From Kiritimatiellia bacterium (GTDB lineage: Bacteria > Verrucomicrobiota > Kiritimatiellia > JAQICX01): a stretch of 48,374 nucleotides of DNA. Below are positions 9,473-42,842 of the stretch, one piece after another. The notes under the pieces are model-generated. The model made no database searches and had not been told where the DNA came from. It saw only the letters and a program-made list of their open reading frames with translations. Location of the stretch: the NCBI GenBank assembly GCA_027858345.1, contig JAQICX010000181.1, positions 1-48,374 on the forward strand. The letters run 5' to 3'. Numbering within the stretch: position 1 is the stretch's first letter; every line of letters begins with the position of its first letter. Position numbers and translations under genes: made by a program.

Positions 9473-9723
9473 AAAAGTTGAAGTGATTGGTAAGATGCTC
9501 ACTTCCTCCTACGTTCCTACGGTGTGACACAGTCGTTCGCCGAGCCCAGTCAAACAACAGTCAAACAAATTTAGTTCCGTGACCTGCATTGCAAATATAC
9601 TTCAATTTAATCACTTACGGAATCTCCATTACAAAAATAATGGAAATTTATAAAATACTGGTTGACAAATTATCAATAGGTATTATACAATATAACCATT
9701 TAAATTATTTGAGGGGAAATTGA

Positions 9724-11103
9724 ATGGCGAATATATTATCGATTGACATTGGGACTTCGAAGCTTTGTGCGGTTATTTTTGATATGATTGCAGATGAACT
9801 TGTGGCTATAAAATCATGTGCTAATGATAGTAATATTGATTTGACAATGGCGGATTATCATGAACAATGTCCTGAAAAGATTGTGCAATCTATTTTCGGG
9901 CTTATTATGGATTTGTCTGAGGAGTATTCGGCTGAATTGGCATCTGTTGAGGGAGTTTCTGTTTCTGGGCAGATGCATGGTGTTCTTTTGGTAAATGAAA
10001 AATGCGAGCCGGTAACAAATTTTATTACATGGCGGGATAAGCGGGCTTTAGAGTTTGAAGATTTGCTATCCAGTTGTAACACCGCCGATAACTTTATGGC
10101 AACGGGTACTCATCTGCAAAGTGGATATGGCGGGGCAACTTTGGCATGGCTTTTTGCTCATGGAAAAATTTCCAATGGGTGTCGGGCTTTATCGATGGCT
10201 GATTATCTGGTTTTACGTCTTACAGGTAAAGCAGCAACTGAATCAACCCATGCTGCTAGCTGGGGAATTCTGAATATACAAAAAAATGATTGGTGCTATC
10301 CATTAATAGAAAAACTTGGAATTGATACAGAAATATTGCTGCCAGTGCATAGAAGTGCAGAACCGCTTGGCGTGATAACGATTGATATGGCCGTTGAACT
10401 TGGTTTGAATCGCAAGGTTATTGTGTATTCACCGGTTGGTGATAATCAGGCAGGTGTTATAGGCACGGCTGGGTTTGATAAAAACCAGATGATTCTTAAT
10501 CTTGGAACAGGTGGGCAGATTTCGGTTTCTCAGGATAGTTTTGATGTTATAGATGGTTTTGAGATGCGTCCTATGCCGCATGGCGGGTCGATTCTTGTAG
10601 GTGCTAGTTTGTGTGGTGGTTGGTCTTATGCTTATTTATGTGAGTTTGTGAAAGATTTGCTGAAAAAGATAGGGAATGTTGAGCTAACTAACGTTGAAAT
10701 ATTTAACAAGCTTGATAAACTTTCAAGTGAGGCTGATTGCTCTTGTGGTGGACTTGTGGTTGATACTCGTTTTGCAGGAACACGGGGAGAACATGATTTA
10801 CGTGGGGAGATAAAAAATATTGATACTTCTAATTTTAATATTTGCAATCTTGGAAGGGCTTTTCTTGTGGGTATGGTTTCAGAATTGTCAAATCTTGCAA
10901 GCAAAATTGATACATCGGAAATTTCAAGAATTTTCACATGTGGCAATGGAGTTTATAAAAATCCTTTGCTAGTAGAAATTATTGCCAATATTTTTAGAAA
11001 GACGGTGGTGTTATCGAATGTGCGGGAGGAGGCAGCAGTTGGGGCTGCTTTGGCTGTGGCACAGACTATTAAATTGTCAAGAGATATAAAATATGATCAA
11101 TAA
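9724..11103 (+). CDS. FGGY-family carbohydrate kinase (xylulokinase/sedoheptulokinase-like)
   Basis: MANILSIDIGTSKLCAVIFD, SVSGQMHGVLLVN, TWRDKRA, GYGGATLAWL, MADYLVLRLTGK, VGDNQAGVIG, LNLGTGGQ; RBS gagggg upstream. Confidence 0.88.
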   Translation: MANILSIDIGTSKLCAVIFDMIADELVAIKSCANDSNIDLTMADYHEQCPEKIVQSIFGLIMDLSEEYSAELASVEGVSVSGQMHGVLLVNEKCEPVTNFITWRDKRALEFEDLLSSCNTADNFMATGTHLQSGYGGATLAWLFAHGKISNGCRALSMADYLVLRLTGKAATESTHAASWGILNIQKNDWCYPLIEKLGIDTEILLPVHRSAEPLGVITIDMAVELGLNRKVIVYSPVGDNQAGVIGTAGFDKNQMILNLGTGGQISVSQDSFDVIDGFEMRPMPHGGSILVGASLCGGWSYAYLCEFVKDLLKKIGNVELTNVEIFNKLDKLSSEADCSCGGLVVDTRFAGTRGEHDLRGEIKNIDTSNFNICNLGRAFLVGMVSELSNLASKIDTSEISRIFTCGNGVYKNPLLVEIIANIFRKTVVLSNVREEAAVGAALAVAQTIKLSRDIKYDQ

Positions 11104-13195
11104 AACACAATATGTCCGTGATAAGATATTTCGTGAGATTCTTGAAGGTAAATACAAGCCTGGCGGCAAACTACCAACTGAAGTTCAGATGGCGAAGCTT
11201 ACCAATACCAGCCGAATTACGATACGACGTGCATTTGCGGAGCTGGAAAAAAGTGGAATAATTCATCGAATACAAGGTAGGGGTACATTTGTTTCGATAT
11301 CCCTTCATGGCGGTGGCGGCGAAGGTGATCATGTTGCTTTGCTGACGACCCTTAATGATCCTTTTGCACTAGAATTTATTACGCATCTTGAGTCTGAACT
11401 TGCCAAACAGGATTTGCTTTTGACTCTTAAGATAACCGATGAAGATCCAAGAAAGGAAAATGCTGCAGCTATTAAGTTGGTTGCAAAAGGTATTCGCAAC
11501 CTTATAGTCTGGCCTAGTGGAAACTCAGTGTCTTATGATACCTTTTTCAGGCTTAGAGTGCTTGGTGCAAATATTGTTTTTTTTGACAGGAAGTTTCCAG
11601 GTGACTGTGCGGATTATATTGGTCTTGACCATAAAAAGGCTGTTACTGATTTGCTTGAACATGCTTGTTGCAATGGATTAAAAGAATTTATTTTTATTAA
11701 TTACAAAGGGTTAGTGGCGGACAGTAATGCGATGCGGCAGGAAGCGTTTGAGAAGTATTGTGCAGATAAGAAATTGAAGCATAGTGTTGTTTTAATAGAT
11801 TATTCTTCATCGCCGGGTCAACAAATAGAAGCAAATTGGAAAAATTGGATACATGGTTTTGGAAAGCTGGCAGTGATTTGTGTTAATGATACAGTCTCTA
11901 TAGCAGCAAGTGATGTTCTGGGAAATAAAATAAATATTTATGGCATTGATGGATTTAGCAAAGCTATAGAACGCGGGATTGTTTCAGTTGCTCAGCCGTT
12001 ATCGATGATGGCTGTAAAATCTATCCAACTTTTACAGAAGCAGCGTGAATTGGGAAGTAACTGGAAAGCAAGGAATATTTTTGTTAAGGGCAAGATTATT
12101 GAAAAAAAAAGGGAGAATATAATGAATTTTAATCAACCTATTTTGTTTATGCCGAATCGTGTTTGGCGTGCTTATGTTGGCGGACAAGTAATGGATGAAT
12201 TTTTGTATGGTCTAGAGAAACCTGACGGGCATTTTCCGGAGGATTGGCTTGGGTCTGTTACTATTGCAAACAATTATGTCAATCAACAGTCTCCCGAGGA
12301 AGGTTTAACCAGAGTCAGGAATTCAAATGGAAAAGAAGGACCACTATTTAAAGATTTGCTTGAAAAATATCCTCAGCAAATTGTAGGTAACGATTCGGGC
12401 AATCTTGATGTGTTGTGCAAGTATCTTGATTCTGCAATTCGTCTGCCCATTCAGTGTCATCCTGATAAAGAATTTGCACTGAAGTATCTAGACAGTCCTA
12501 ATGGAAAAACAGAATCGTGGTTTGTACTTGCGACTAGACAAATTAATGGTGAAGATCCTTATTTGTTGCTTGGATTTAAAGAAAATGTAGATGCAGATGA
12601 TTTTAAAAAGGCGGTACTTGCTCAGGATATTCTTACGATGGAGAATTCGCTTCACAAGATTAAGGTTAAGCCGGGTGATATGTATTTTATTCCAGGCAGA
12701 TTGCCACATGCGATAGGTCCTGGGGTATTTTTGCTGGAAGTTCAGGAACCTACCGACTGGGTGGTTCAGCCGGAGCTGTATATTGGTGATACTAAACTTT
12801 CTCATCAAGAGATGTGGGGAGAGCTTAGTATTGAAGATGGCTTGAAGTGTTTTGATTATGAATCTAAAGGTACATTGGAGCAAATTCTTAGGCGTTGTCG
12901 ATTACTACCGGCAACCGCAGTTCAGAACGAGAATTACATATTCAGCGAGATCATTGGCCCGGCAATTACGGATTGTTTTGCGGTGCATAAGATGGAAATA
13001 AATAAAAGTTGCGGAATAAAATTTAACAACTGGGCAATTTCTGTTGTTACCGAAGGAGTTGCCAGAATAAATAATATTGAAGTAAAACGAGGCGATTATT
13101 TCTTTGTTCCGTATGCGGCGGAGGAGGTGAAGTTTGATGTTGAACAAAAAGTATCTATTTATGTGATTGGGAATCAATCATTGAGTATCAGATGA
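11093..13195 (+). CDS. Fused ORF: GntR-HTH/periplasmic-binding-like (AraR-type) regulator + class I mannose-6-phosphate isomerase
   Basis: N-term wHTH 'YVRDKIFREILEGKYKPGGKLPTEVQMAKLTNTSRITIRRAFAELEKSGIIHRIQGRGTFV' plus LacI-like sensor; from Met344 'MNFNQPILFMPNRVWRAYVGG...LPIQCHPDKEFALKYL...GDMYFIPGRLPHAIGPGVFLLEVQEPTDWVVQPE' is PMI-like. Confidence 0.85.
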   Translation: MINKTQYVRDKIFREILEGKYKPGGKLPTEVQMAKLTNTSRITIRRAFAELEKSGIIHRIQGRGTFVSISLHGGGGEGDHVALLTTLNDPFALEFITHLESELAKQDLLLTLKITDEDPRKENAAAIKLVAKGIRNLIVWPSGNSVSYDTFFRLRVLGANIVFFDRKFPGDCADYIGLDHKKAVTDLLEHACCNGLKEFIFINYKGLVADSNAMRQEAFEKYCADKKLKHSVVLIDYSSSPGQQIEANWKNWIHGFGKLAVICVNDTVSIAASDVLGNKINIYGIDGFSKAIERGIVSVAQPLSMMAVKSIQLLQKQRELGSNWKARNIFVKGKIIEKKRENIMNFNQPILFMPNRVWRAYVGGQVMDEFLYGLEKPDGHFPEDWLGSVTIANNYVNQQSPEEGLTRVRNSNGKEGPLFKDLLEKYPQQIVGNDSGNLDVLCKYLDSAIRLPIQCHPDKEFALKYLDSPNGKTESWFVLATRQINGEDPYLLLGFKENVDADDFKKAVLAQDILTMENSLHKIKVKPGDMYFIPGRLPHAIGPGVFLLEVQEPTDWVVQPELYIGDTKLSHQEMWGELSIEDGLKCFDYESKGTLEQILRRCRLLPATAVQNENYIFSEIIGPAITDCFAVHKMEINKSCGIKFNNWAISVVTEGVARINNIEVKRGDYFFVPYAAEEVKFDVEQKVSIYVIGNQSLSIR
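12122..13195 (+). CDS. manA: Mannose-6-phosphate isomerase, class I (probable independent start inside the fused ORF)
   Basis: ATG at 12122 preceded by gggag (12111-12115) with ~6 nt spacing; PMI domain begins exactly here; QCHPDKEFA metal-site motif and C-terminal cupin. Confidence 0.7.
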   Translation: MNFNQPILFMPNRVWRAYVGGQVMDEFLYGLEKPDGHFPEDWLGSVTIANNYVNQQSPEEGLTRVRNSNGKEGPLFKDLLEKYPQQIVGNDSGNLDVLCKYLDSAIRLPIQCHPDKEFALKYLDSPNGKTESWFVLATRQINGEDPYLLLGFKENVDADDFKKAVLAQDILTMENSLHKIKVKPGDMYFIPGRLPHAIGPGVFLLEVQEPTDWVVQPELYIGDTKLSHQEMWGELSIEDGLKCFDYESKGTLEQILRRCRLLPATAVQNENYIFSEIIGPAITDCFAVHKMEINKSCGIKFNNWAISVVTEGVARINNIEVKRGDYFFVPYAAEEVKFDVEQKVSIYVIGNQSLSIR

Positions 13196-13338
13196 AGTTT
13201 TAATTGTAATTCAAGAGAGCCACTGTTAGAGCTAACTTCCTCAATGACCTTGGGGGTCTTGACTGGAGGCAGACGGGGCGTGGAATTTTTGCAAGCGATT
13301 CAATATATTAAGTTTTTAAGAGAGGTAGATATGGAGTT

Positions 13339-14232
13339 ATGAGAATATTTTCAACAGGTTTTAGTGAGGGGCTTGACGGGCCTGGGCGGAGATGGATTGT
13401 TTACCTTAAGGGGTGTAACTTTCGTTGTCTTTGGTGTGCTAGTCCTGAAAGTATTTCAGGTAGCAAGGAAATTCTTTTTTATCCTGATCGTAGTAGATAT
13501 AGCGATAAGTCTTGTACGCATGGAGCTGTATCTTTAGATAGGAATAGTTTTCACCTGAATCGTTCAGAATGTGAATTTTGCAAGGATCATAATTGTGTAA
13601 CAGTTTTTCATGATCCTTCTTTTGAAATAGTAGGTGAGGACATAACATCTGATCATTTAGTTGGCAAAGCAGAAAAATACCGGTCTTTATTTGGCAGGGA
13701 TGGCGGCGTCACTTTCGGTGGAGGAGAATCGACGTTGCAGGATGTGGAGTTGTTTGAAGCAATAGCAGAATTAAGGGCAAGGCAGATAAATGTGGCAGTG
13801 GAAACAAATGGTTCAACTGCTGCTGCTCAAAAACTTGTGGGTAAGGTGGATCTACTTATATGTGATTTTAAATGTTTTTCTCGCGATTTGCATCTGCAAT
13901 GGACTGGGGCTGAAAATGATCAAGTTCTTAAAACAATTTTGTATGCTTGTAAACAAAAACAGAAGCTTTTGGTGCGAATACCGCTGATCTGCGGTTTTAA
14001 TGATTTTAAAAGCGAATGGTCGCTTATGAGAGATTTTCTTTGTGACTGCAAAGAGCTGGCAGGAGAATTAAATGTAGAGATACTTAGGATGCATCATTTT
14101 GGCAAGCCTAAGTATAAAGCGTTAGGGATTGAATATCCGATGCTTAATGTGGCTTGTCCAACTCAGGTAGATGTACGTGAATTGGCAAATTTATTAAAAA
14201 ATAGTGGAATAAATGTGCGGGTATGCACTTAG
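13339..14232 (+). CDS. Glycyl-radical enzyme activating enzyme (radical SAM)
   Basis: LKGCNFRCLWCASPE (CxxxCxxC), VTFGGGESTLQ, additional Cys cluster CTHG...CEFCKDHNC; adjacent to the GRE. Confidence 0.9.
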   Translation: MRIFSTGFSEGLDGPGRRWIVYLKGCNFRCLWCASPESISGSKEILFYPDRSRYSDKSCTHGAVSLDRNSFHLNRSECEFCKDHNCVTVFHDPSFEIVGEDITSDHLVGKAEKYRSLFGRDGGVTFGGGESTLQDVELFEAIAELRARQINVAVETNGSTAAAQKLVGKVDLLICDFKCFSRDLHLQWTGAENDQVLKTILYACKQKQKLLVRIPLICGFNDFKSEWSLMRDFLCDCKELAGELNVEILRMHHFGKPKYKALGIEYPMLNVACPTQVDVRELANLLKNSGINVRVCT

Positions 14233-14240
14233 AGGTTGTT

Positions 14241-14401
14241 TAGAGCATTTCACTCATGAAACGCAGTAAATCTTTGTCCTGCGGCTTCCGTTGAATCTTT
14301 CAAAAAAATACGCAATAGGCCTGCTATTACTTGATTTTTTTTTAAGTCCAACGTCGTCCTCGAATAAAATCTTTACAGCGTTTCATTTGTTCAATGCTCT
14401 A
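14241..14401. mobile_element. MITE-like element copy 1 (~161 bp, TIR tagagcatt...atgaaacgc)
   Basis: Ends TAGAGCATTTCACTCATGAAACGCAGTAAA ... TTTACAGCGTTTCATTTGTTCAATGCTCTA are inverted repeats; near-identical copy in opposite orientation at 42680-42842; TA at both ends. Confidence 0.85.
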
Positions 14402-14411
14402 GTCTCTTAAT

Positions 14412-16802
14412 TTGGAGTTTATGATGATTGATTCAAAAAATAATGATTTGGTTATGGCGCTGGCAGATGGCGTTGAGAAAGTTCGCTCTTTCAAGCGTTC
14501 TCAGGATACGGTGGTTGAGTGGTTTTTTGTTCAGGAAATACGAATGCAGCAGTATGAAAAAATGATTGCATGTGGACTTAATCCTGATGATGCAGAAGGG
14601 CAGGCAGAGCTTCTTATTCGTACGATTAGTGAAATGCCTTTAAGTATTATCCCCGGCAGTGCAATTGCGGGCAGTCAGGATGCGGGGTTTTCTCCTTCTT
14701 ATGCTCTGATAAATCCTTCATTCAAAGTTGACGAATTTGCCGGCTATTGTGATCCGGTTGCAATTTATGATGATATTAAACCAGATGAAGCACTTGGTCT
14801 CAGCAAAGAGCGTATTGAAAGGGTAAGGCAATATTGGAAAGATACTGAATACGTGCGCAAGCTAAGTAGTATTTATGATTCAACCGGTGATTTGACTGGA
14901 GAGGTTGTTTTTTTTGCTGAACCAGTTACTGGTCATACTATTCCTGATTTCAGAGATTTCATAAAATTTGGAGTATCTGAAATGATAGAACGAGCTTATC
15001 AACTTCAAAGCCCATATGGCAAGATTATGGGCAAAGCGCTTGAGGCTGTGGTTATTCTTGGAAAACGATATCACCAGCTTGCCAAAGAGTTGGCGGAAAA
15101 CACTAAAGATGAAAATGAAAGAATTCGCCTTAAAAAGATTGCTGATATTCTTACGCGCATACCTGCTGAGCCAGCAAGAGATCTTCATGAAGCGATAGAG
15201 ATGTATGTATTATTGTGGCAGGTGATGGTAATCGAGCAAGCTCCCAATCCATATGCATTTTCAGTGGGCAATCTTGATCGCATACTTTCCCCGTATTATA
15301 AACAATCGGATATTTCTTATGAGCATGCAGTAGAACTTGTTCGTAATATGCTCTGTTTTTTTCAAGTAGGCAAACGATGCTGGGCTATAAGTCAGAATGT
15401 TCTTGTTGGCGGTAAAGATGAAAAAGGCAATAATCTGACTGACGAAATGAGTTATATTATTTTGGATGCTTTTTATAAAACAAACGATCCTCAGCCTGCA
15501 TTGTCGGTAAAAGTTTATGCCGAAACCCCCGTTGAGCTTTACGATTCAATCGGAAGATTTTTCTTCACGCCTGGACATTCAACGCCATCATTATTTAATG
15601 ATGACAGTGTTTTTGAGATGCTTCTGCAACAAGGTAAAGCAGTTTCTGATTTGCCTGATTATTCGATAGCTGGTTGTCAGGAACTGTTAGTTATGGGGAA
15701 GTCATCATTGAATACGACCAACTCTTGGCTTAATTTGGCAAAGGTTCTAACTTTAGCATGTAATGATGGCAAGTCGCTTATCAGTTCAAAACAACTTGTA
15801 CCTACATGGCGTGAGTTGGGGTACTGTGATGCAACGAATGCTTATGAGAACATTCATGATGTTTTCTTCAAGATGTTGAAAATTGTTCTTCCGAAAATGC
15901 AGCAAACAGCCAATGCCTGTACGGATTTGTTAGGTACAGAAAAGCCTGTTCCTTTTACCTCGGCTGTGATGGACAGCTTTAATACTGGTTCGGATATGCG
16001 TGATCCTAAAAAACCTGGTACTCGTTATAATGCCAGTGGTTGTCTTGTGCATGGACTTTCGGTTGTGAGTGACTCTCTTTATGCTGTTAAGAATGCTTTG
16101 TCCACAGGAATGTGGTGTGCCGATGATATTCAGAAGGCTCTATGTGAAAATTTTGATGGGAATGAAAATTTAAGAAGCTTTTTGTTAAATCAACCTCGTT
16201 ATGGTAACGGCAATGATGAGGCAGACGATCTGGCTGTTTCGCTTATTAACAGGGTTGCTGATATGATTGGAGAGCTTCGTAACACAGCGGGTAATGAATT
16301 TTTGGCAGATTTTTCTACTCCAAGTACGCATTTGCTTTATGGCTACTGGGTAGGAGCTACACCAGACGGTAGAAAAGCCAGGCAAATGCTTGGGTACGGT
16401 ATAGACCCGCAGTTTGAGTCCATGCACACGTCTTTAGCAGAGAGGATTGTCTCTTACTGGAAAATACCTTATCACAAGATGAGCGGTGGATATTCAAGCC
16501 ATGTGGGGATTGATCCAGCATCAATACGCGGTAAAGAAACTATGGAACAAAAATCTCATTGGATGCGGGATAATATAATCAAGCCACTAATGAGACTTGG
16601 ACAAGGTTATAAAGAATCGCCTTTTTATGTATATTTCAATATTGATTCTGTTGATCATCTAAAAAAAGTATTGGCAGAACCGCAGAAATATGCCCCGACT
16701 GGAGTTTATATTATGCGTATTCACGGCACCTTTGTGAACTTTTTGGATCTTTCCCCAGCCATTCAGCAGGATATAATGAAACGACTGGAAGCTTCATCGT
16801 AA
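14412..16802 (+). CDS. Glycyl radical enzyme (PFL-like), atypical; likely start at ATG 14421
   Basis: Active-site Cys region DYSIAGCQELLVMGKSS; C-terminal radical region YAPTGVYIMRIHGTFVNFLDLSPAIQQDIMKR; paired activase upstream; ggag RBS before 14421. Confidence 0.88.
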   Translation: MEFMMIDSKNNDLVMALADGVEKVRSFKRSQDTVVEWFFVQEIRMQQYEKMIACGLNPDDAEGQAELLIRTISEMPLSIIPGSAIAGSQDAGFSPSYALINPSFKVDEFAGYCDPVAIYDDIKPDEALGLSKERIERVRQYWKDTEYVRKLSSIYDSTGDLTGEVVFFAEPVTGHTIPDFRDFIKFGVSEMIERAYQLQSPYGKIMGKALEAVVILGKRYHQLAKELAENTKDENERIRLKKIADILTRIPAEPARDLHEAIEMYVLLWQVMVIEQAPNPYAFSVGNLDRILSPYYKQSDISYEHAVELVRNMLCFFQVGKRCWAISQNVLVGGKDEKGNNLTDEMSYIILDAFYKTNDPQPALSVKVYAETPVELYDSIGRFFFTPGHSTPSLFNDDSVFEMLLQQGKAVSDLPDYSIAGCQELLVMGKSSLNTTNSWLNLAKVLTLACNDGKSLISSKQLVPTWRELGYCDATNAYENIHDVFFKMLKIVLPKMQQTANACTDLLGTEKPVPFTSAVMDSFNTGSDMRDPKKPGTRYNASGCLVHGLSVVSDSLYAVKNALSTGMWCADDIQKALCENFDGNENLRSFLLNQPRYGNGNDEADDLAVSLINRVADMIGELRNTAGNEFLADFSTPSTHLLYGYWVGATPDGRKARQMLGYGIDPQFESMHTSLAERIVSYWKIPYHKMSGGYSSHVGIDPASIRGKETMEQKSHWMRDNIIKPLMRLGQGYKESPFYVYFNIDSVDHLKKVLAEPQKYAPTGVYIMRIHGTFVNFLDLSPAIQQDIMKRLEASS

Positions 16803-17372: not shown

Positions 17373-18767
17373 ATGAAGAACACAATAAAGACAAGACCTG
17401 AGCTCTATCAGGAGACGTTTCGTCCACAGATCCATTTCACAGCAAGGTATTGGGACGACTACCGGCTTAATCCGCAAGCACACCAAGAAGGCTGGTTGAA
17501 TGATATGAACGGCCTCGTGTTTCTGGATGGCGAGTATCATTTTTTTGCGCAGCGTTGGTGGTCATGCTGGCTCCATGCCGTGAGCAAAGACCTGATTCAT
17601 TGGGAAGAATTACCTCCTGCCTTCGGCAAAGATGACAAATTCGGTGGGACCCAGTCGGGCGGTGCGGTAATCGACTACAACAACACGTCAGGGCTCGCCA
17701 CAGGCGAGACGCCAGTGATGGTTGCGTTCTGGTCCAGCGAGGACAATATGAGGCAGTGCATTTCGTACAGTAATGACAGGGGCAGAACATGGGAGAAGTA
17801 TGACAAAAACCCTATCCTCGTTTATCCCGAACGAGATCCCAAGGTGTTCTGGTATGAACCAAGCGCCAAATGGATTATGGTCCTGTATGGACCTCCTGGT
17901 AACAGCTATAATCTATTTTCATCAACCAACCTGTTGGAATGGGTCAAGATCGGTGAACCAATTCTAGATATGCACGAATGTCCGGATATGTTTCAGCTTC
18001 CCCTGGATGGTGACGCTGGAACGAAGAAGTGGGTGGTTGTGGACGGCGACGGCAGTTACATCATCGGAACATTCGACGGAATCAACTTTACTGCTGAAAG
18101 CAAGAAGGCCAAAGGAGATTTCGGGAAACATTTTTACGCCACCATGACGTGGAACTGCATGCCCAAGGAAGATTCAAGACGCATCCAGGTGGCGTGGATG
18201 AGGTCCGAGTTGTATCCAGTAGACATGCCCTTCAATCAACAGACTACATTCCCGTGCGAGCTGTCACTTCGGACATGTTCAGAAGGTATTCGATTGTGCA
18301 GATATCCAATTCGTGAAATCGGATTGCTCTATTCCGAGGAAACCGCCATGAATGATGAGACTGTGAACCCTGAGGATAATCCTCTCAAAAACGTCCGTGG
18401 CGAATCGTTTGACATTATGGTGGAGATAGACACATCGAAAACAACTTGTGAAGCTGTTGTCATTCTCGTCCGTGGAAGTGAGGTGAAATACGACTTCAAG
18501 AGTCAAATACTAGAGTCGTGTGGATCGTGCATAGAACTTAAGCCAAAGGCGGGAATGATTCAGCTACGCATCCTCGTTGACCGTCTGTCTGTAGAGACTT
18601 TCGGCAACTTGGGTGAGGTTTCTATCACCAATTGTTCGCAAGCTTCTGACGACGAAGTTCCCCTATCGCTTAACCCCGTTGGCGGAAACGTGTTTGTCAA
18701 GTCATTGACTGTGCAAAGATTGAACTCAATGTGGTCTAGAAAAGTCGATGAAGGTGATGACCTCTAA
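17373..18767 (+). CDS. Glycoside hydrolase family 32, variant NDMNG motif
   Basis: FRPQIHFTARY...EGWLNDMNGLVFLDGEYHFFAQ, ERDPKVFWYEP, HECPDMFQLP; overall parallel to the GH32 at 4751-6028. Confidence 0.9.
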   Translation: MKNTIKTRPELYQETFRPQIHFTARYWDDYRLNPQAHQEGWLNDMNGLVFLDGEYHFFAQRWWSCWLHAVSKDLIHWEELPPAFGKDDKFGGTQSGGAVIDYNNTSGLATGETPVMVAFWSSEDNMRQCISYSNDRGRTWEKYDKNPILVYPERDPKVFWYEPSAKWIMVLYGPPGNSYNLFSSTNLLEWVKIGEPILDMHECPDMFQLPLDGDAGTKKWVVVDGDGSYIIGTFDGINFTAESKKAKGDFGKHFYATMTWNCMPKEDSRRIQVAWMRSELYPVDMPFNQQTTFPCELSLRTCSEGIRLCRYPIREIGLLYSEETAMNDETVNPEDNPLKNVRGESFDIMVEIDTSKTTCEAVVILVRGSEVKYDFKSQILESCGSCIELKPKAGMIQLRILVDRLSVETFGNLGEVSITNCSQASDDEVPLSLNPVGGNVFVKSLTVQRLNSMWSRKVDEGDDL

Positions 18768-28511: not shown

Positions 28512-30635
28512 TCACTTTGTGCCATCGACCCGGCGTCCGTCAAGACCGCCCTTGTTCGGCTTTGGACCATCTTGAGGCGTGGCAAGGTCTTTACGTTGCC
28601 ATATGCGCATGTAGTCAATTTCGAAGTCTGCGGGGAGTTGGGCATCGTCAAGCGGATCACATTCCCAACCGCCGAGCATATTCTGAAATTGGACGTACAT
28701 TTGTTCGCCAATGATGCGGGGACTTTCCCAGTTCCAAATCTCCTCACCATTGCCGTAAAAGGTCAGCGAGCCAGGGAGCCAGAGCATGCCAACCACGATG
28801 AAGCCCTCTGGGTCCGTTGCGACGTAGTTGGCGGAGGTTCCAAGCTTTTTATGCTCCTCTGAGTAGCCATCCCAATGACAGGCGATGTTGAAGCGATGTG
28901 GCCCCCAGATGGACTGCGCTTCGACAATATCGATTTCCATGCCGCCGTTAAACGTTTCGGTACGCCCTTTAAATCCTTGCCAGTTGACTTGGGGCAGACC
29001 ATCGGGAAATTTGGCTAGGCCGCGATCCGGCATCAGCCAGATTCCGGGCCACATATGCGCTTCAGTTGGAAGTTTTGCACGGAATTCGAAGTAGCCGTAA
29101 CGCTGTGTCCATTTGCCGAAGGTATCGGCCCAGCCCGTGGCGTAAGGGGTTTCGATTTCCTGATTGTGGCTGTCACCTGGTATGTCTGCCGAAGTACCAT
29201 CGTTTTGGAGTCCTGTTTTCTTTTCCGTGCGGAGCACGAGCTTGCCGTTGCGAAGAAAAGTGTTGTCTTTACTGAAATGCTGACGCTTGTCCCACCAGTT
29301 GAACCAATAGACACTCCAGAGCTTGTCGTTGAGAACCTTACCGTCGAATTCCTCATCCAGTGTTTTGACCCAGTCGCCGGCGACGGGAGGGCGTTTGCCC
29401 AGCCACTGCGGGAGCTTTACAGGAGGCTGATCTGCAAAGATGCTGAGAACTTCTATCGACTGGTTGGTGCCTTTGGCATCAGCCAGAAAAGTTAGCGAAC
29501 GGACCTTGTGGTTGCGAAACGCAGTGCCAGTGCCAGAGATACGATCCCAGTGTCCACCTTTTTGCGAATCGGCCTGGGCAACTTCTGTCGGAGCTTTCCA
29601 TGGGACGTCTGGTCCGAACGGAATGATAACGGTTGCTTCTTGTCCTGGTGCGATGGCCGATGGTGGCGTACAAACCTTGGTCGAGCCATCAATACTATCG
29701 AGAAACAGACCGGGAGAGCAGGGCGTTGTGCCGTTATTGCGGATGCGAACGCTCATCCTCATGTGGTCGCCTAAATCCCAGAAACCTCCGACATTCGGCT
29801 TTATCTGCACGGAGGTATTACCGGCATCAGCAAAATCAACGAGTACAGCCGCACCGTTTTTCGAATACCCGACCTTTGAACCACCGCTTGCGTTGATGCG
29901 AACAGAATCCTTGGCGAGTTTTGCCCCATTGAAAATTTTGCCGTCAGCGGGTTTTATACGGGCTTCGTCAGGATTGCTTCCGACGGGTTCGCCTTCCCAG
30001 CCGCTAGCCTTGATGTCCTCAATACGAAACGACACATCTTGGTCTGGTTTCGTGCAGAAGAACATCAGGCGCGTAACTGCCTTGGGATCAAGTTTAAAAG
30101 CATGCTGGAAGTTATAGGAGTAACCGAAGTAGACTCGGATGACGGCGGTCTGCCCCGGCGCCAATTTCTTCATTTCGGCGTTCCAGCGGTTCTCGCTGGA
30201 AGGACCTGCGTTGTCGACGCGTAGGTTGATGATGGCTTCTGTGTCACCCGTATTAGTAACCTTGGCTTCAACGTGACCATAAAGGACGAGGTTCCAAGGC
30301 TTTTTGTCGACGGGCGTGATGACGACGCCCGGCCAAGGGGCATCCCCTTTCTTAATGGACATGTCGAAACCCGAGGCATCGGCTTTGGCAACAACTTGAG
30401 CATCTGCACCATAGCTGGGTGCAAGCTGACTTTGTGCCTTATCAGGATTCTGTTCAAGCAAAGTTTTGGGCATGACAGCTCCATCGGCCAACACCATCTG
30501 TGTGGTGACGGTGATCAGGCAGGCACCAAGTACCCAAGCAAGTTTTGTTTGAGAGAGGTTTTTATTCATTATCCACATTATTCTAGTTTTCCAGCATTCC
30601 ATAATTCCATAATTCCTAATTTTATAGCATTCCAA
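28512..30635 (-). CDS. Second secreted GH16-family glycoside hydrolase (likely start 30569)
   Basis: 'GGMEIDIVEAQSIWGPHRFNIACHWDGYSEEHKKLGT' parallels the GH16 at 25404; signal peptide MNKNLSQTKLAWVLGACLITVTTQMVLA begins at an internal Met. Confidence 0.87.
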   Translation of the reverse strand: MECYKIRNYGIMECWKTRIMWIMNKNLSQTKLAWVLGACLITVTTQMVLADGAVMPKTLLEQNPDKAQSQLAPSYGADAQVVAKADASGFDMSIKKGDAPWPGVVITPVDKKPWNLVLYGHVEAKVTNTGDTEAIINLRVDNAGPSSENRWNAEMKKLAPGQTAVIRVYFGYSYNFQHAFKLDPKAVTRLMFFCTKPDQDVSFRIEDIKASGWEGEPVGSNPDEARIKPADGKIFNGAKLAKDSVRINASGGSKVGYSKNGAAVLVDFADAGNTSVQIKPNVGGFWDLGDHMRMSVRIRNNGTTPCSPGLFLDSIDGSTKVCTPPSAIAPGQEATVIIPFGPDVPWKAPTEVAQADSQKGGHWDRISGTGTAFRNHKVRSLTFLADAKGTNQSIEVLSIFADQPPVKLPQWLGKRPPVAGDWVKTLDEEFDGKVLNDKLWSVYWFNWWDKRQHFSKDNTFLRNGKLVLRTEKKTGLQNDGTSADIPGDSHNQEIETPYATGWADTFGKWTQRYGYFEFRAKLPTEAHMWPGIWLMPDRGLAKFPDGLPQVNWQGFKGRTETFNGGMEIDIVEAQSIWGPHRFNIACHWDGYSEEHKKLGTSANYVATDPEGFIVVGMLWLPGSLTFYGNGEEIWNWESPRIIGEQMYVQFQNMLGGWECDPLDDAQLPADFEIDYMRIWQRKDLATPQDGPKPNKGGLDGRRVDGTK

Positions 30636-30662
30636 TATTCAAATATTCCAGGCGTCCAACTC

Positions 30663-32584
30663 TTACTTGACGATGATGAGAGTTCCCTGAACCGGAACAG
30701 TCAGCACAATGCTGCCGCTGCCGTTAATGGTTGCCGTACCTGCCACGGCATTGCCGCTCGCATCGAGGTATTCAAGACTATAACTATCCGGAAGCGTTTC
30801 GCCATTGAGTGTGACATCGTCGAATCGGCCAGTCAGAAAATTGGAAAATGTTACAAGAACGTGTTCTCCACTGGGAACATTAGCCGTCGGAGTGATGATC
30901 TCAAGAGCATCCTGATTCATCGAGCTGTCTAGTTTGACGGCTCCGACGACCGCAAGACAAGAACTTGTGCCGGCTGGACCGAGTGTTGAGCGCAAGGTAG
31001 CGTAGTTGATGAAGGTGACATTGTTGGTTACCTCAGATGTTCCAACCGAGAGTGTTCCGCACAGCCATTCACCGGTGTTGCGGTCAACAGTGCCCGGTGC
31101 GAGTATAGCGGGGTCGCCGCTTGCACCTTCCAGTGTGACGTGTCCGCTGATGTAGGCCGTATCCAAGCTGCAAACGGCTCCTGTTCCGCCAAGTGTCCCA
31201 CCAGCGACGACATTCACAGAGTTGCTCCCCGAGACTGGTAGACTGCCGCCATCCATCAACAGCGTTCCCCCGCTGACGATGATGGGCTTTCTCTCACGGC
31301 GCATATCGCTTCCCGTCGGATAGCTGAGCGCCAAGACACCAGGTCCTGCCTTTGTGAAACCAAAAGTGCCGCGAATCCGACCTGAAATTTCCAAATCAAC
31401 GGGAGCCGCACCGTCTTCAGTGTAAAAGCTGTAACGCTCACCACCTAATTTTACGTCTGTAGAAATCGTGGCCGTCTCGTCTGAAGCCCGAGTGGTAATT
31501 CCCGCATACCCGTTAGTGGTTGGGGAGATAAGGGAAACCGTTCCGTTTTTAATGATACCCCCCGTCATGGTGATGGATCGATCCCACGGTGTCGTCCCAA
31601 TGTTTATCAAGTAAAGTTCGTTCCCTCCGAAGTCAATTGTTCCACCATTGACGATATACGTCTCGGGATAAAACGTGGCTTTGGCAGCCGGCGAACTGAT
31701 TTGGTACAAGCCGTTAGTGTTGACGGTGACGATAGCGTACGTCTGTACTCCCAATACATTTTGAGATTCCACAGCGACATCAAGCATGGCCGGATGGATT
31801 CCATCGCCAACAACGACTTCGTAGCTCTTGAGCTGCGTGCCATATCCTTCGAGGCGAATAGTGCCTTCTGCGATGACAGTCTTACCCGTGTACGAATTGT
31901 TCTCGTAAAGAGTACATCTCAACATGCCATCGCCCGTTTTTGTGAGGGAGTATCCATTATCGTCGTTATTGATTGAAGTGCCAACGACAAGTTCTTTCGG
32001 TGCTTCGATCGACCAGATACCATCACCGGCAAGCTGAAGATACACGGTCTGATTCGTGGCAGGAATGTCGTTGATGTTGGACATATCAATATCCTTCACT
32101 ACGATAGCAAAGTTGCCGCCCAGCTTCAAGGAGCCAGGTTGAGCGTATGTCAGTTTATCGATGGTTTCACTATTCACCAGTGTAATCGAGGTACGCGTAA
32201 GTGCATCAGGAAACACCGCCTCATCACCGGGACCCGGGTTGACGTCGCCATCCCAAGAGGTTTCGAAACCAGTACCCCATTGCCATCCAGCCCCATGGAA
32301 CCGCCTGTTCCGCCGCCATCCCATGTTACGACCGCAGCACTGCACAAGCCTACCATAGAAAAAAATACGATAACCGCAGCGATTTGCTGGTGTCGTATTT
32401 TTTTTATTGTTGTGTTGTATTGATACATGTTATCAAAACCTATCGATATAAGCTCCAACATTTTCTTTATAAATTTAGACATATAACTCTTTCCTTTTGT
32501 TACGTAATTACTTTTATTAGTTAAAAGCTTGCTATCAAAACCAATAGATAGAAGCCCCAACGTTCTCTTTATGAATTTAGACAT
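30663..32584 (-). pseudogene. Secreted autotransporter/beta-helix-type protein, frameshifted near the N-terminus
   Basis: 136-aa ORF supplies the signal peptide and 'AAVVTWDGGGTGGSMG'; 560-aa ORF in another frame supplies 'AGWQWGTGFETSWDGDVNPGPGDEAVFPDAL...'. One extra G in the G4 run at 32291-32294 joins them. Confidence 0.75.
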
Positions 32585-34280: not shown

Positions 34281-35220
34281 TTGAGTCACAACGACGTGGA
34301 CGATACAGGGGCGAGGCATGATGGCAAAAACGGATACTGCACTCATATCGGCAATAATTTCTTCGTTTGGTTTGAAAGTACAGATCGTAAAAGTCGGATT
34401 AACTTTCTTGAATTGTTGCGTAACGGGAATGGAGATTATGTGATTAATAAAGATACGATCTCGTACATAGAGCGGCTAATTTTTCCACAGCCTTTACTTG
34501 AACAGCTTGCCGAAAACCCCACTAAACATCTTGCAAGCGAAATGGATTGGAAACGCCATCTGGAACAACTGGGAATTAAGAAAGATCGTCATGTACGGAT
34601 TGCGACAGAGGGTGCGTTGCTCGGTATCGTCCTGCACCACGGTTTCTCAAAAAAATTAGTGATTCTCAGTGATGATGCCGGACAATTCAATATTCTTCTT
34701 CATGCTCTGTGCTGGATTCATGCTGAAAGAACCATTCACAAACTTATTCCCTGTAGCGATGAAGAAGCCAAAGCCATCGAGGATATCAGAGATCGTATTT
34801 GGCAGTTGTATCGAGGTTTGAAAGCGTACAAAAAAATGCCTGATTTAAAAACTAAATTCACCTTGGAAAAATGCTTTGATGAGATTTTTGACACTCGGAC
34901 CAGTTGTGAAATATTAGATGCGGCTTTACATCGTATAGCCAAAAACAAAACGGAATTACTTCTAGTTCTAGACCGTCCTGATATTCCATTGCATAATAAT
35001 CTTAGCGAATCCGATATTCGCGAATATGTCAAGAAACGTAAGATTAGCGGAAGTACGCGCTCGAATAATGGCAGGCGCTGCCGTGATACGTTCACCAGCC
35101 TAAAAAACATGTCGAAAACTGGAAGTTTCATTTTGGGACTATCTTAATGATCGCATTTCAAATACCGGCAAAATCCCGCCATTGGCTGATATTATTCGCG
35201 CAAAGGCACAATCAGAATAA
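34281..35220 (+). mobile_element. IS66-family transposase, 5'-truncated and frameshifted
   Basis: DDTGARHDGKNGYCTHIGNNFFVWFEST, ALCWIHAERTIHKL, HNNLSESDIREYVKKRKISGSTRSNNGRRCRDTFTSLK; C-terminus TCRKLEVSFWDYLNDRISNTGKIPPLADIIRAKAQSE* continues in +1 frame after A6 at 35102-35107. Confidence 0.85.
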
Positions 35221-42400: not shown

Positions 42401-42679
42401 CCATTATCATCACTTTTTCCAGCTAAACCCCAATTTTTCGGTTGAGAAACTTTATGAGAACGAGGATCCCGCAGGGTGGGACACCCAAACTTGCAAATTA
42501 ATATTGTCCTGTAGGAATGGGATCATCCTTCGCAGTTCCGGTCTACGGCGGACAAGTCGGCTACATGGCTGAACATATATTGCCTTTTCCAGAAAAGGCA
42601 ACATCAATGCAGTGTTTAATAACAACACAAATATTCAAAAACATTTGCGATCTTCGCTGTTAAATCTCATTCGCTAGAT

Positions 42680-42842
42680 TAGAGCATTGAACAAATGAAA
42701 CGCTGTAAAGATTTTATTCGAGGACGACATTGGGCTTTTAAAAAAAAATCAAGTAACAGCAAGCCTATTGCGTATTTTTTTGAAAGATTCAACGGAAGCG
42801 GCAGGACAAAGATTTACTGCGTTTCATGAGCGAAATGCTCTA
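42680..42842. mobile_element. MITE-like element copy 2 (~163 bp, inverted orientation)
   Basis: Reverse complement aligns with 14241-14401 almost end to end; ends TAGAGCATT...AATGCTCTA. Confidence 0.85.

Follow-up and report, generated by a model that had tools for sequence, protein, structure and literature searches.

An operon of conserved gene content around a distinct glycyl radical enzyme, with a putative role in anaerobic sugar catabolism, in a Kiritimatiellia bacterium

The 48,374 nt contig JAQICX010000181.1 of a Kiritimatiellia bacterium (assembly GCA_027858345.1; the whole contig is here called the window, and is C214 in a genome of 4.03 Mb in 256 contigs) carries at positions 9724-16802, all on the forward strand, genes for an FGGY-family sugar kinase, a regulator, a protein resembling phosphomannose isomerase (PMI), a radical SAM activase and a glycyl radical enzyme (GRE). 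The question raised by this set of genes, hereafter the cassette, is what a radical enzyme might do amongst genes for handling sugars. Chance does not account for the grouping, since these genes are found together again and again, in 26 loci belonging to two phyla, and what they form is a real, conserved system, uncharacterised as far as could be checked, that uses a kind of enzyme already known. Our tentative reading, to which we give slightly less than an even chance, is that the operon serves anaerobic sugar catabolism under the control of a repressor, and that its central enzyme is a new GRE eliminase.

A first-pass annotation of the DNA had described five functions running in one direction, with the kinase overlapping the regulator by 11 nt; the open reading frames (ORFs), together with Pfam and NCBIfam profiles, bear out the first point and the ORF coordinates the second. 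The features are:

9677-9699, no strand assigned: operator-like 23-bp palindrome TAGGTATTATACAATATAACCAT, recurring upstream of other cassettes
9724-11103, + strand: FGGY-family ketose kinase, 459 aa (PF00370/PF02782)
11093-13195, + strand: regulator and PMI in a single 700-aa ORF (ORF list)
11093-12121, + strand: regulator part, a GntR-type helix-turn-helix with a LacI-type sugar-sensing domain (PF00392, E 1.7e-15)
12102-12110, + strand: homopolymer of nine A (A9) bridging regulator and PMI (read from the sequence)
12122-13195, + strand: class I PMI-like isomerase, 357 aa (TIGR00218, 60.6 bits, under cut-off)
13339-14232, + strand: radical SAM GRE activase, 297 aa (TIGR02494, 186 bits, over cut-off)
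14241-14401, no strand assigned: element of 161 bp resembling a miniature inverted-repeat transposable element (MITE), recognised by its genome copies and inverted ends
14421-16802, + strand: GRE, 793 aa, in an ORF that opens at TTG 14412 (PF02901, the PFL-like Pfam profile, E 1.8e-99, 334.6 bits)

Translation of the GRE probably begins at ATG 14421 rather than at TTG 14412, as a GGAG close upstream gives the ATG normal spacing. Beside its PF02901 match the protein gave no match to the Gly_radical profile PF01228 at E <= 0.001, and none of the NCBIfam equivalogs for HypD, CutC, sulfopropanediol dehydratases, 4-hydroxyphenylacetate decarboxylase (HPAD), indoleacetate decarboxylase or pyruvate formate-lyase (PFL) was over its cut-off, the top score being that of HypD with 231 bits against a required 1100; these scores rule out an enzyme of any of those types. 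Orthologues share 50-62% identity with the window GRE, other GREs within the three genomes checked reach at most 31%, YbiW and PflD reach 25%, and plasmid records hold distant GREs only, at about 25%. In a maximum likelihood tree 22 clade members split off at 100/99 support on a stem 3.6 changes per site long and do not cluster inside any characterised subgroup tested; YbiW and PflD pair together near glycerol dehydratase, apart from the clade, and the long branches make deeper placement unsafe. By these sequence measures the GRE constitutes a new, sharply bounded clade, and the earlier view that it lies outside the characterised subgroups is upheld for those tested.

The radical loop MRIHGTFVNFLDL reads RIHGTF in all clade members instead of the usual RVxG(Y/W/F), and is invariant in 20 orthologues. 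Gly772, the radical position in ORF numbering, and Arg769 do not vary in the clade alignment, nor, in the 20-member alignment, do the thiyl Cys422 and base Glu424 (GCQE) and His175 (GHT), and a GC-x-E Cys loop with its Glu base, as in GRE eliminases and dehydratases, is present. This constancy bears on the suggestion that the operon is degenerate or mis-assembled and serves no working pathway, for which the non-canonical glycyl loop, the ORF fused over A9 and the MITE inside the operon could be cited; with RIHGTF kept in 20 orthologues at 50-62% identity, all frames open and the operator conserved, we find that suggestion scarcely credible.

An AlphaFold2 model of the GRE (pLDDT 81.6, pTM 0.88), in which the active-site loops are the least certain parts, was aligned by Foldseek with GREs along its entire length at TM scores of 0.74-0.82, the nearest being propanediol dehydratase, glycerol dehydratase and PflD. 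Since the nearest folds are eliminases, the model points to an eliminase rather than a decarboxylase or addition enzyme. By sequence the closest solved relative is glycerol dehydratase (193 bits), with an archaeal GRE and HypD also among the best, and as glycerol and propanediol dehydratases are the top matches in both sequence and fold the GRE might be a dehydratase of small polyols such as glycerol or 1,2-propanediol, placed after an aldolase in a sugar pathway that is otherwise ordinary. However, the glycerol dehydratase residues His281, Ser282 and Asp447, which we take to be those that bind glycerol, align with Tyr281, Ala282 and Thr436 of the window enzyme, positions that are invariant in the clade, most loci lack an aldolase, and no shell proteins of a bacterial microcompartment (BMC) occur anywhere in the window genome; a small-polyol dehydratase is thus very improbable, and one linked to a BMC is ruled out. 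The first-pass annotation had likewise reported no BMC shell genes and no aldehyde dehydrogenase, and none of the latter was found among the window proteins scanned against Pfam.

Orthologues of the GRE were sought in 388 genomes of the window's phylum, which is shared with Victivallaceae genomes and which we take to be GTDB Verrucomicrobiota, and in 392 genomes of the phylum of the Planctomycetota metagenome-assembled genome G409, and were found in 21 and 3 of them, respectively. The 26 loci compared include the window, and one genome (G011) carries two cassettes. Neighbours were counted up to 9 kb from the GRE, several gaps being contig ends, and within this distance the activase and the FGGY kinase are each present in 24/26 loci, the regulator in 21/26 and the PMI-like protein in 15/26. 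The neighbours named in the first-pass annotation therefore do recur, and neither BMC nor aldehyde dehydrogenase genes recur with them. A mutarotase and a DUF4432 protein adjoin the kinase on its 3' side in L036 and L035.

In three loci other aldose isomerases replace the PMI-like protein, namely a D-lyxose isomerase family protein (PF07385, E 7.6e-89) in L048 and L050, which also carry a class II ketose-bisphosphate aldolase (TIGR00167 over cut-off), and an arabinose-isomerase-like protein between GRE and kinase in L031. The occurrence of three unrelated aldose-ketose isomerases in one slot suggests an aldose-ketose step, and because the D-lyxose isomerase and arabinose-isomerase families act on free sugars the sugar is probably unphosphorylated when it is isomerised.

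The PMI-like protein is itself manA-like and keeps the metal-ligand motifs QxH, KTE and HAI, but the position of the Arg that is catalytic in class I PMI is occupied by Gln, both in the window copy (VVQPE) and in all the cassette copies compared ((V/I)QPE, 11/11). A separate ManA-type gene lies elsewhere in 13/13 cassette genomes searched, over the curated cut-off in 10, and the intact canonical PMIs read from cassette genomes have the Arg (TTYR/TTFR or NVIR) in 7/7. The cassette protein would appear to be a re-tooled PMI, and the change from Arg to Gln fits a substrate other than mannose-6-phosphate, without naming one.

The join between regulator and PMI in the window passes through GAAAAAAAAAGGGAGAATATAATGAAT. 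Were the homopolymer A8 instead of A9, the regulator frame would close with a TAA (12120-12122) that overlaps the PMI ATG at 12122-12124, for which AGGGAG is a ready ribosome site; the fusion thus hangs on a single homopolymer base, and it could have arisen by sequencing error or slippage or be genuine and recent. In relatives the regulator and PMI are two genes, slightly overlapping or divergent, and the arguments on the pathway are independent of whether the fusion is real. In L069 (11663-13042) an FAD-dependent oxidoreductase (PF12831) overlaps the end of the PMI-like ORF by a single base, and its homologues lie near the cassettes of L033 and L047.

The kinase keeps the GQMHG substrate motif and the catalytic Asp of GDNQA. 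It falls under every NCBIfam equivalog cut-off, the best match being XylB (TIGR01312) at 156.8 bits against a cut-off of 380. Ten cassette kinases are 29-34% identical over their full length to a provisional reference sequence of human sedoheptulokinase, and the best PDB match of one of these kinases scores only 68 bits. The enzyme is an FGGY kinase of ketose type, and the likeness of several relatives to sedoheptulokinase is to be taken as a lead.

Whether such a kinase would act before or after the GRE is the point on which the remaining explanations divide. To our knowledge YbiW and PflD are the only GREs that act directly on sugar-derived hexitol phosphates. The first-pass annotation, in listing the known GRE loci, omitted these two enzymes of 1,5-anhydroglucitol-6-phosphate and anhydromannitol-6-phosphate (AG6P and AM6P), which are the apt comparison. 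In the account of Ma et al., as relayed in PMC12441222, YbiW and PflD open anhydrohexitol-6-phosphates to 1-deoxyfructose-6-phosphate, and they are the known sugar-phosphate GREs (PMC12441222; structures 8id0 and 8id7). The cassette could by this precedent encode anhydroglycolysis in bacteria without a phosphotransferase system (PTS), the FGGY kinase making AG6P or AM6P and so standing in for the PTS enzymes found beside pflD, and the GRE opening the product to 1-deoxyfructose-6-phosphate; that PflD is among the nearest folds would suit this. We consider it quite improbable, given the 25% identity, the separate position in the tree and the different pocket motifs, and given that an aldose-ketose isomerase would have no role on 1-deoxyfructose-6-phosphate. 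Furthermore FSA aldolase, which in E. coli flanks both ybiW and pflD, was found over cut-off in 0/13 cassette genomes and went undetected altogether in 9. The identity, the separate clade, the neighbours and the absence of FSA over cut-off place the GRE outside the YbiW/PflD subgroup.

The kinase might also come first with another substrate, the isomerase supplying a ketose and the GRE breaking a C-O bond in some ketose phosphate that is neither AG6P nor AM6P. Pentose and deoxysugar pathways usually have an isomerase act before an FGGY kinase, and the class II ketose-phosphate aldolase of two loci (TIGR00167) would agree with it. We nevertheless hold this to be unlikely, as the Cys and Gly loops show no clade-specific basic cluster that would hint at a phosphate site, and ordinary ketose phosphates such as fructose-6-phosphate require no radical step. 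Because the isomerase step looks unphosphorylated and FSA is absent over cut-off, the order that seems most likely from the genes is that the GRE acts on an unphosphorylated sugar, or an anhydro or polyol relative of one, and the kinase afterwards.

Control of the operon can be approached through the 23-bp palindrome, consensus ATGGTATTATAATATAATACCAT, which is found in about 20/22 of the cassette loci compared, either within the first gene's promoter or between divergent PMI and GRE genes; L041, which was left out of the motif model, carries it at 27 bits. Across 401 kb of loci, over-threshold palindromes occur in cassette upstream regions only, the chance rate in shuffled sequence being 0.35 hits per 48 kb. 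The window contains the palindrome once, at 9677-9699, where it lies across the -10 box of the best-scoring promoter-like site (TTGACA 9662 / TACAAT ending at 9691; promoter scan 11/12), and nowhere else in the window genome is its 19-bp core matched perfectly. G049 has a second perfect core match, between an AraC-type gene and unrelated ORFs, which looks like chance, and G097 also holds one, at C10:292. L031, which has no regulator near its GRE, also has no palindrome, and this co-absence, with the distribution of the site, suggests that the cassette's own regulator represses its own operon through the predicted operator, to which it would bind. The regulator has weak NCBIfam matches to the fructose/sucrose and ribose LacI regulators. 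A relative of it (42%) in G215 (L076:9568-12645), with no GRE, adjoins an HldE-like PfkB kinase fused to a HAD hydrolase domain, a neighbour that points out no clear substrate.

The first-pass annotation had also linked the operon to the surrounding glycoside hydrolase (GH) genes of families GH92, GH4 and GH2. This link was not sustained: the operator occurs in the window just once, at the operon, so that they were rejected as members of its regulon, and these glycosidases are not kept beside the GRE in other loci. With the core perfect only at the operon, nothing ties GH92, GH4, GH32 or GH2 to its control. Elsewhere, GH2 or GH38 genes of mannosidase type lie directly 3' of the PMI-like gene (L036, L040, L042 and L047, the assignment of GH2 as mannosidase being tentative), and a mannose-related input is plausible for this reason. 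A GH32 gene adjoins the GRE in the window (17373-18767) and lies 6 kb from it in L065. In L032 the GH32 ORF overlaps the GRE ORF by 10 nt (1454-1463), which apparently makes GH32 a member of the GRE operon there. The cassette genomes are glycosidase-rich, so that these neighbours hint at, and do not prove, sugars of the mannose or fructose series. Among the glycosidase genes of the window is also a fragment of an IS66-type transposase (34281-35147), and two long ORFs (707 and 560 aa) at 28512-32345 on the - strand have no confident Pfam match, the second having a weak autotransporter-repeat match.

The operon is most likely one in which a GRE eliminase breaks a C-O bond of a manno- or fructo-type sugar, or a derivative, and the kinase traps the product. 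Sugar would bind the LacI-type domain and the regulator would leave its operator; a free aldose of manno/lyxo configuration, glycosidase-derived or imported, would then, to judge from the isomerases, be converted to a ketose without prior phosphorylation. By homology the activase would install the glycyl radical on Gly772, and by analogy with GRE eliminases the Cys422 thiyl radical would abstract hydrogen from an H-C-OH carbon, Glu424 taking a proton as the neighbouring C-O bond breaks. The leaving group could be water, or a ring or glycosidic oxygen, and the product a deoxy-keto sugar whose terminal hydroxyl the FGGY kinase would phosphorylate before aldolases split it and the pieces enter glycolysis. 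The narrower proposal, that radical dehydration or eliminative C-O cleavage acts on a free hexose-type sugar of the mannose or fructose series, or on a glycoside, with the re-tooled PMI working on unphosphorylated sugar, is possible though rather unlikely in that exact form.

Several points weigh against such a pathway. The role of the replaced Arg is taken from PMI in general. Against sedoheptulokinase the window kinase reaches only 23% identity, and the class II aldolase of L048 and L050 would suit a different pathway end. The gene set is also not absolute, with L070 lacking an adjacent isomerase, L048 and L065 a kinase and L071 an activase.

If the proposal is true, these bacteria could use sugar anaerobically by a way around ordinary phosphorylation-first glycolysis, and the GRE would have a new reaction. 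GREs carry out chemistry that is otherwise hard, and defining the substrate of this clade would add a sugar pathway. The clade is conserved in genomes of Verrucomicrobiota/Lentisphaerota and Planctomycetota, where it comes with an operator-like site of its own, an altered motif at the radical site and what appears to be a re-tooled isomerase, so that its substrate would also show how much variation the glycyl-radical motif tolerates.

The activase matches the Radical_SAM and PFLE_PFLC activase profiles, and alignment reveals a CxxxCxxC motif and one reduced Cys-rich insert. The activases of L035, L040 and L042 are without the entire Cys-rich Fe-S insert, of which their cassette relatives retain a reduced version, so that auxiliary clusters seem to have been lost inside a single GRE system. 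In the window, activase and GRE are separated by the MITE-like repeat, which is no part of the conserved cassette; it begins TAGAGCATT and finishes AATGCTCTA, has 35-nt inverted ends, and is present in about 40 genome copies, most of them 91-99% identical. A second window copy lies at 42676-42842 (-).

Amongst known systems HypD, the trans-4-hydroxyproline dehydratase, provides the top equivalog model and an activase that the cassette activase resembles, but its cut-off is far off and the cassette neighbours are sugar genes, with no proline genes. The cassette kinase shares GQMHG and GDNQA with XylB and sedoheptulokinase, whereas it differs from other FGGY kinases in its equivalog scores and in adjoining a GRE. 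With class I PMI ManA the isomerase has in common the fold family and metal ligands, and it differs in the Gln that replaces the catalytic Arg and in coexisting with a separate ManA-type gene. The B12-independent glycerol and 1,2-propanediol dehydratases (1r8w, 9rco and 5i2g) are nearest in sequence and in fold (TM 0.77-0.81), and the cassette GRE keeps their thiyl Cys, Glu base and His, yet it replaces His281/Ser282/Asp447 and has neither BMC nor aldehyde dehydrogenase beside it. From YbiW and PflD it is set apart by clade and by RIHGTF in place of their RVAGY, and the cassette by an FGGY kinase instead of PTS, a PMI-like isomerase, and no neighbouring FSA aldolase or GldA; what unites them is sugar catabolism by a GRE with its own activase, the GRE fold with its Cys-x-Glu loop, and the C-O cleavage to be expected of it.

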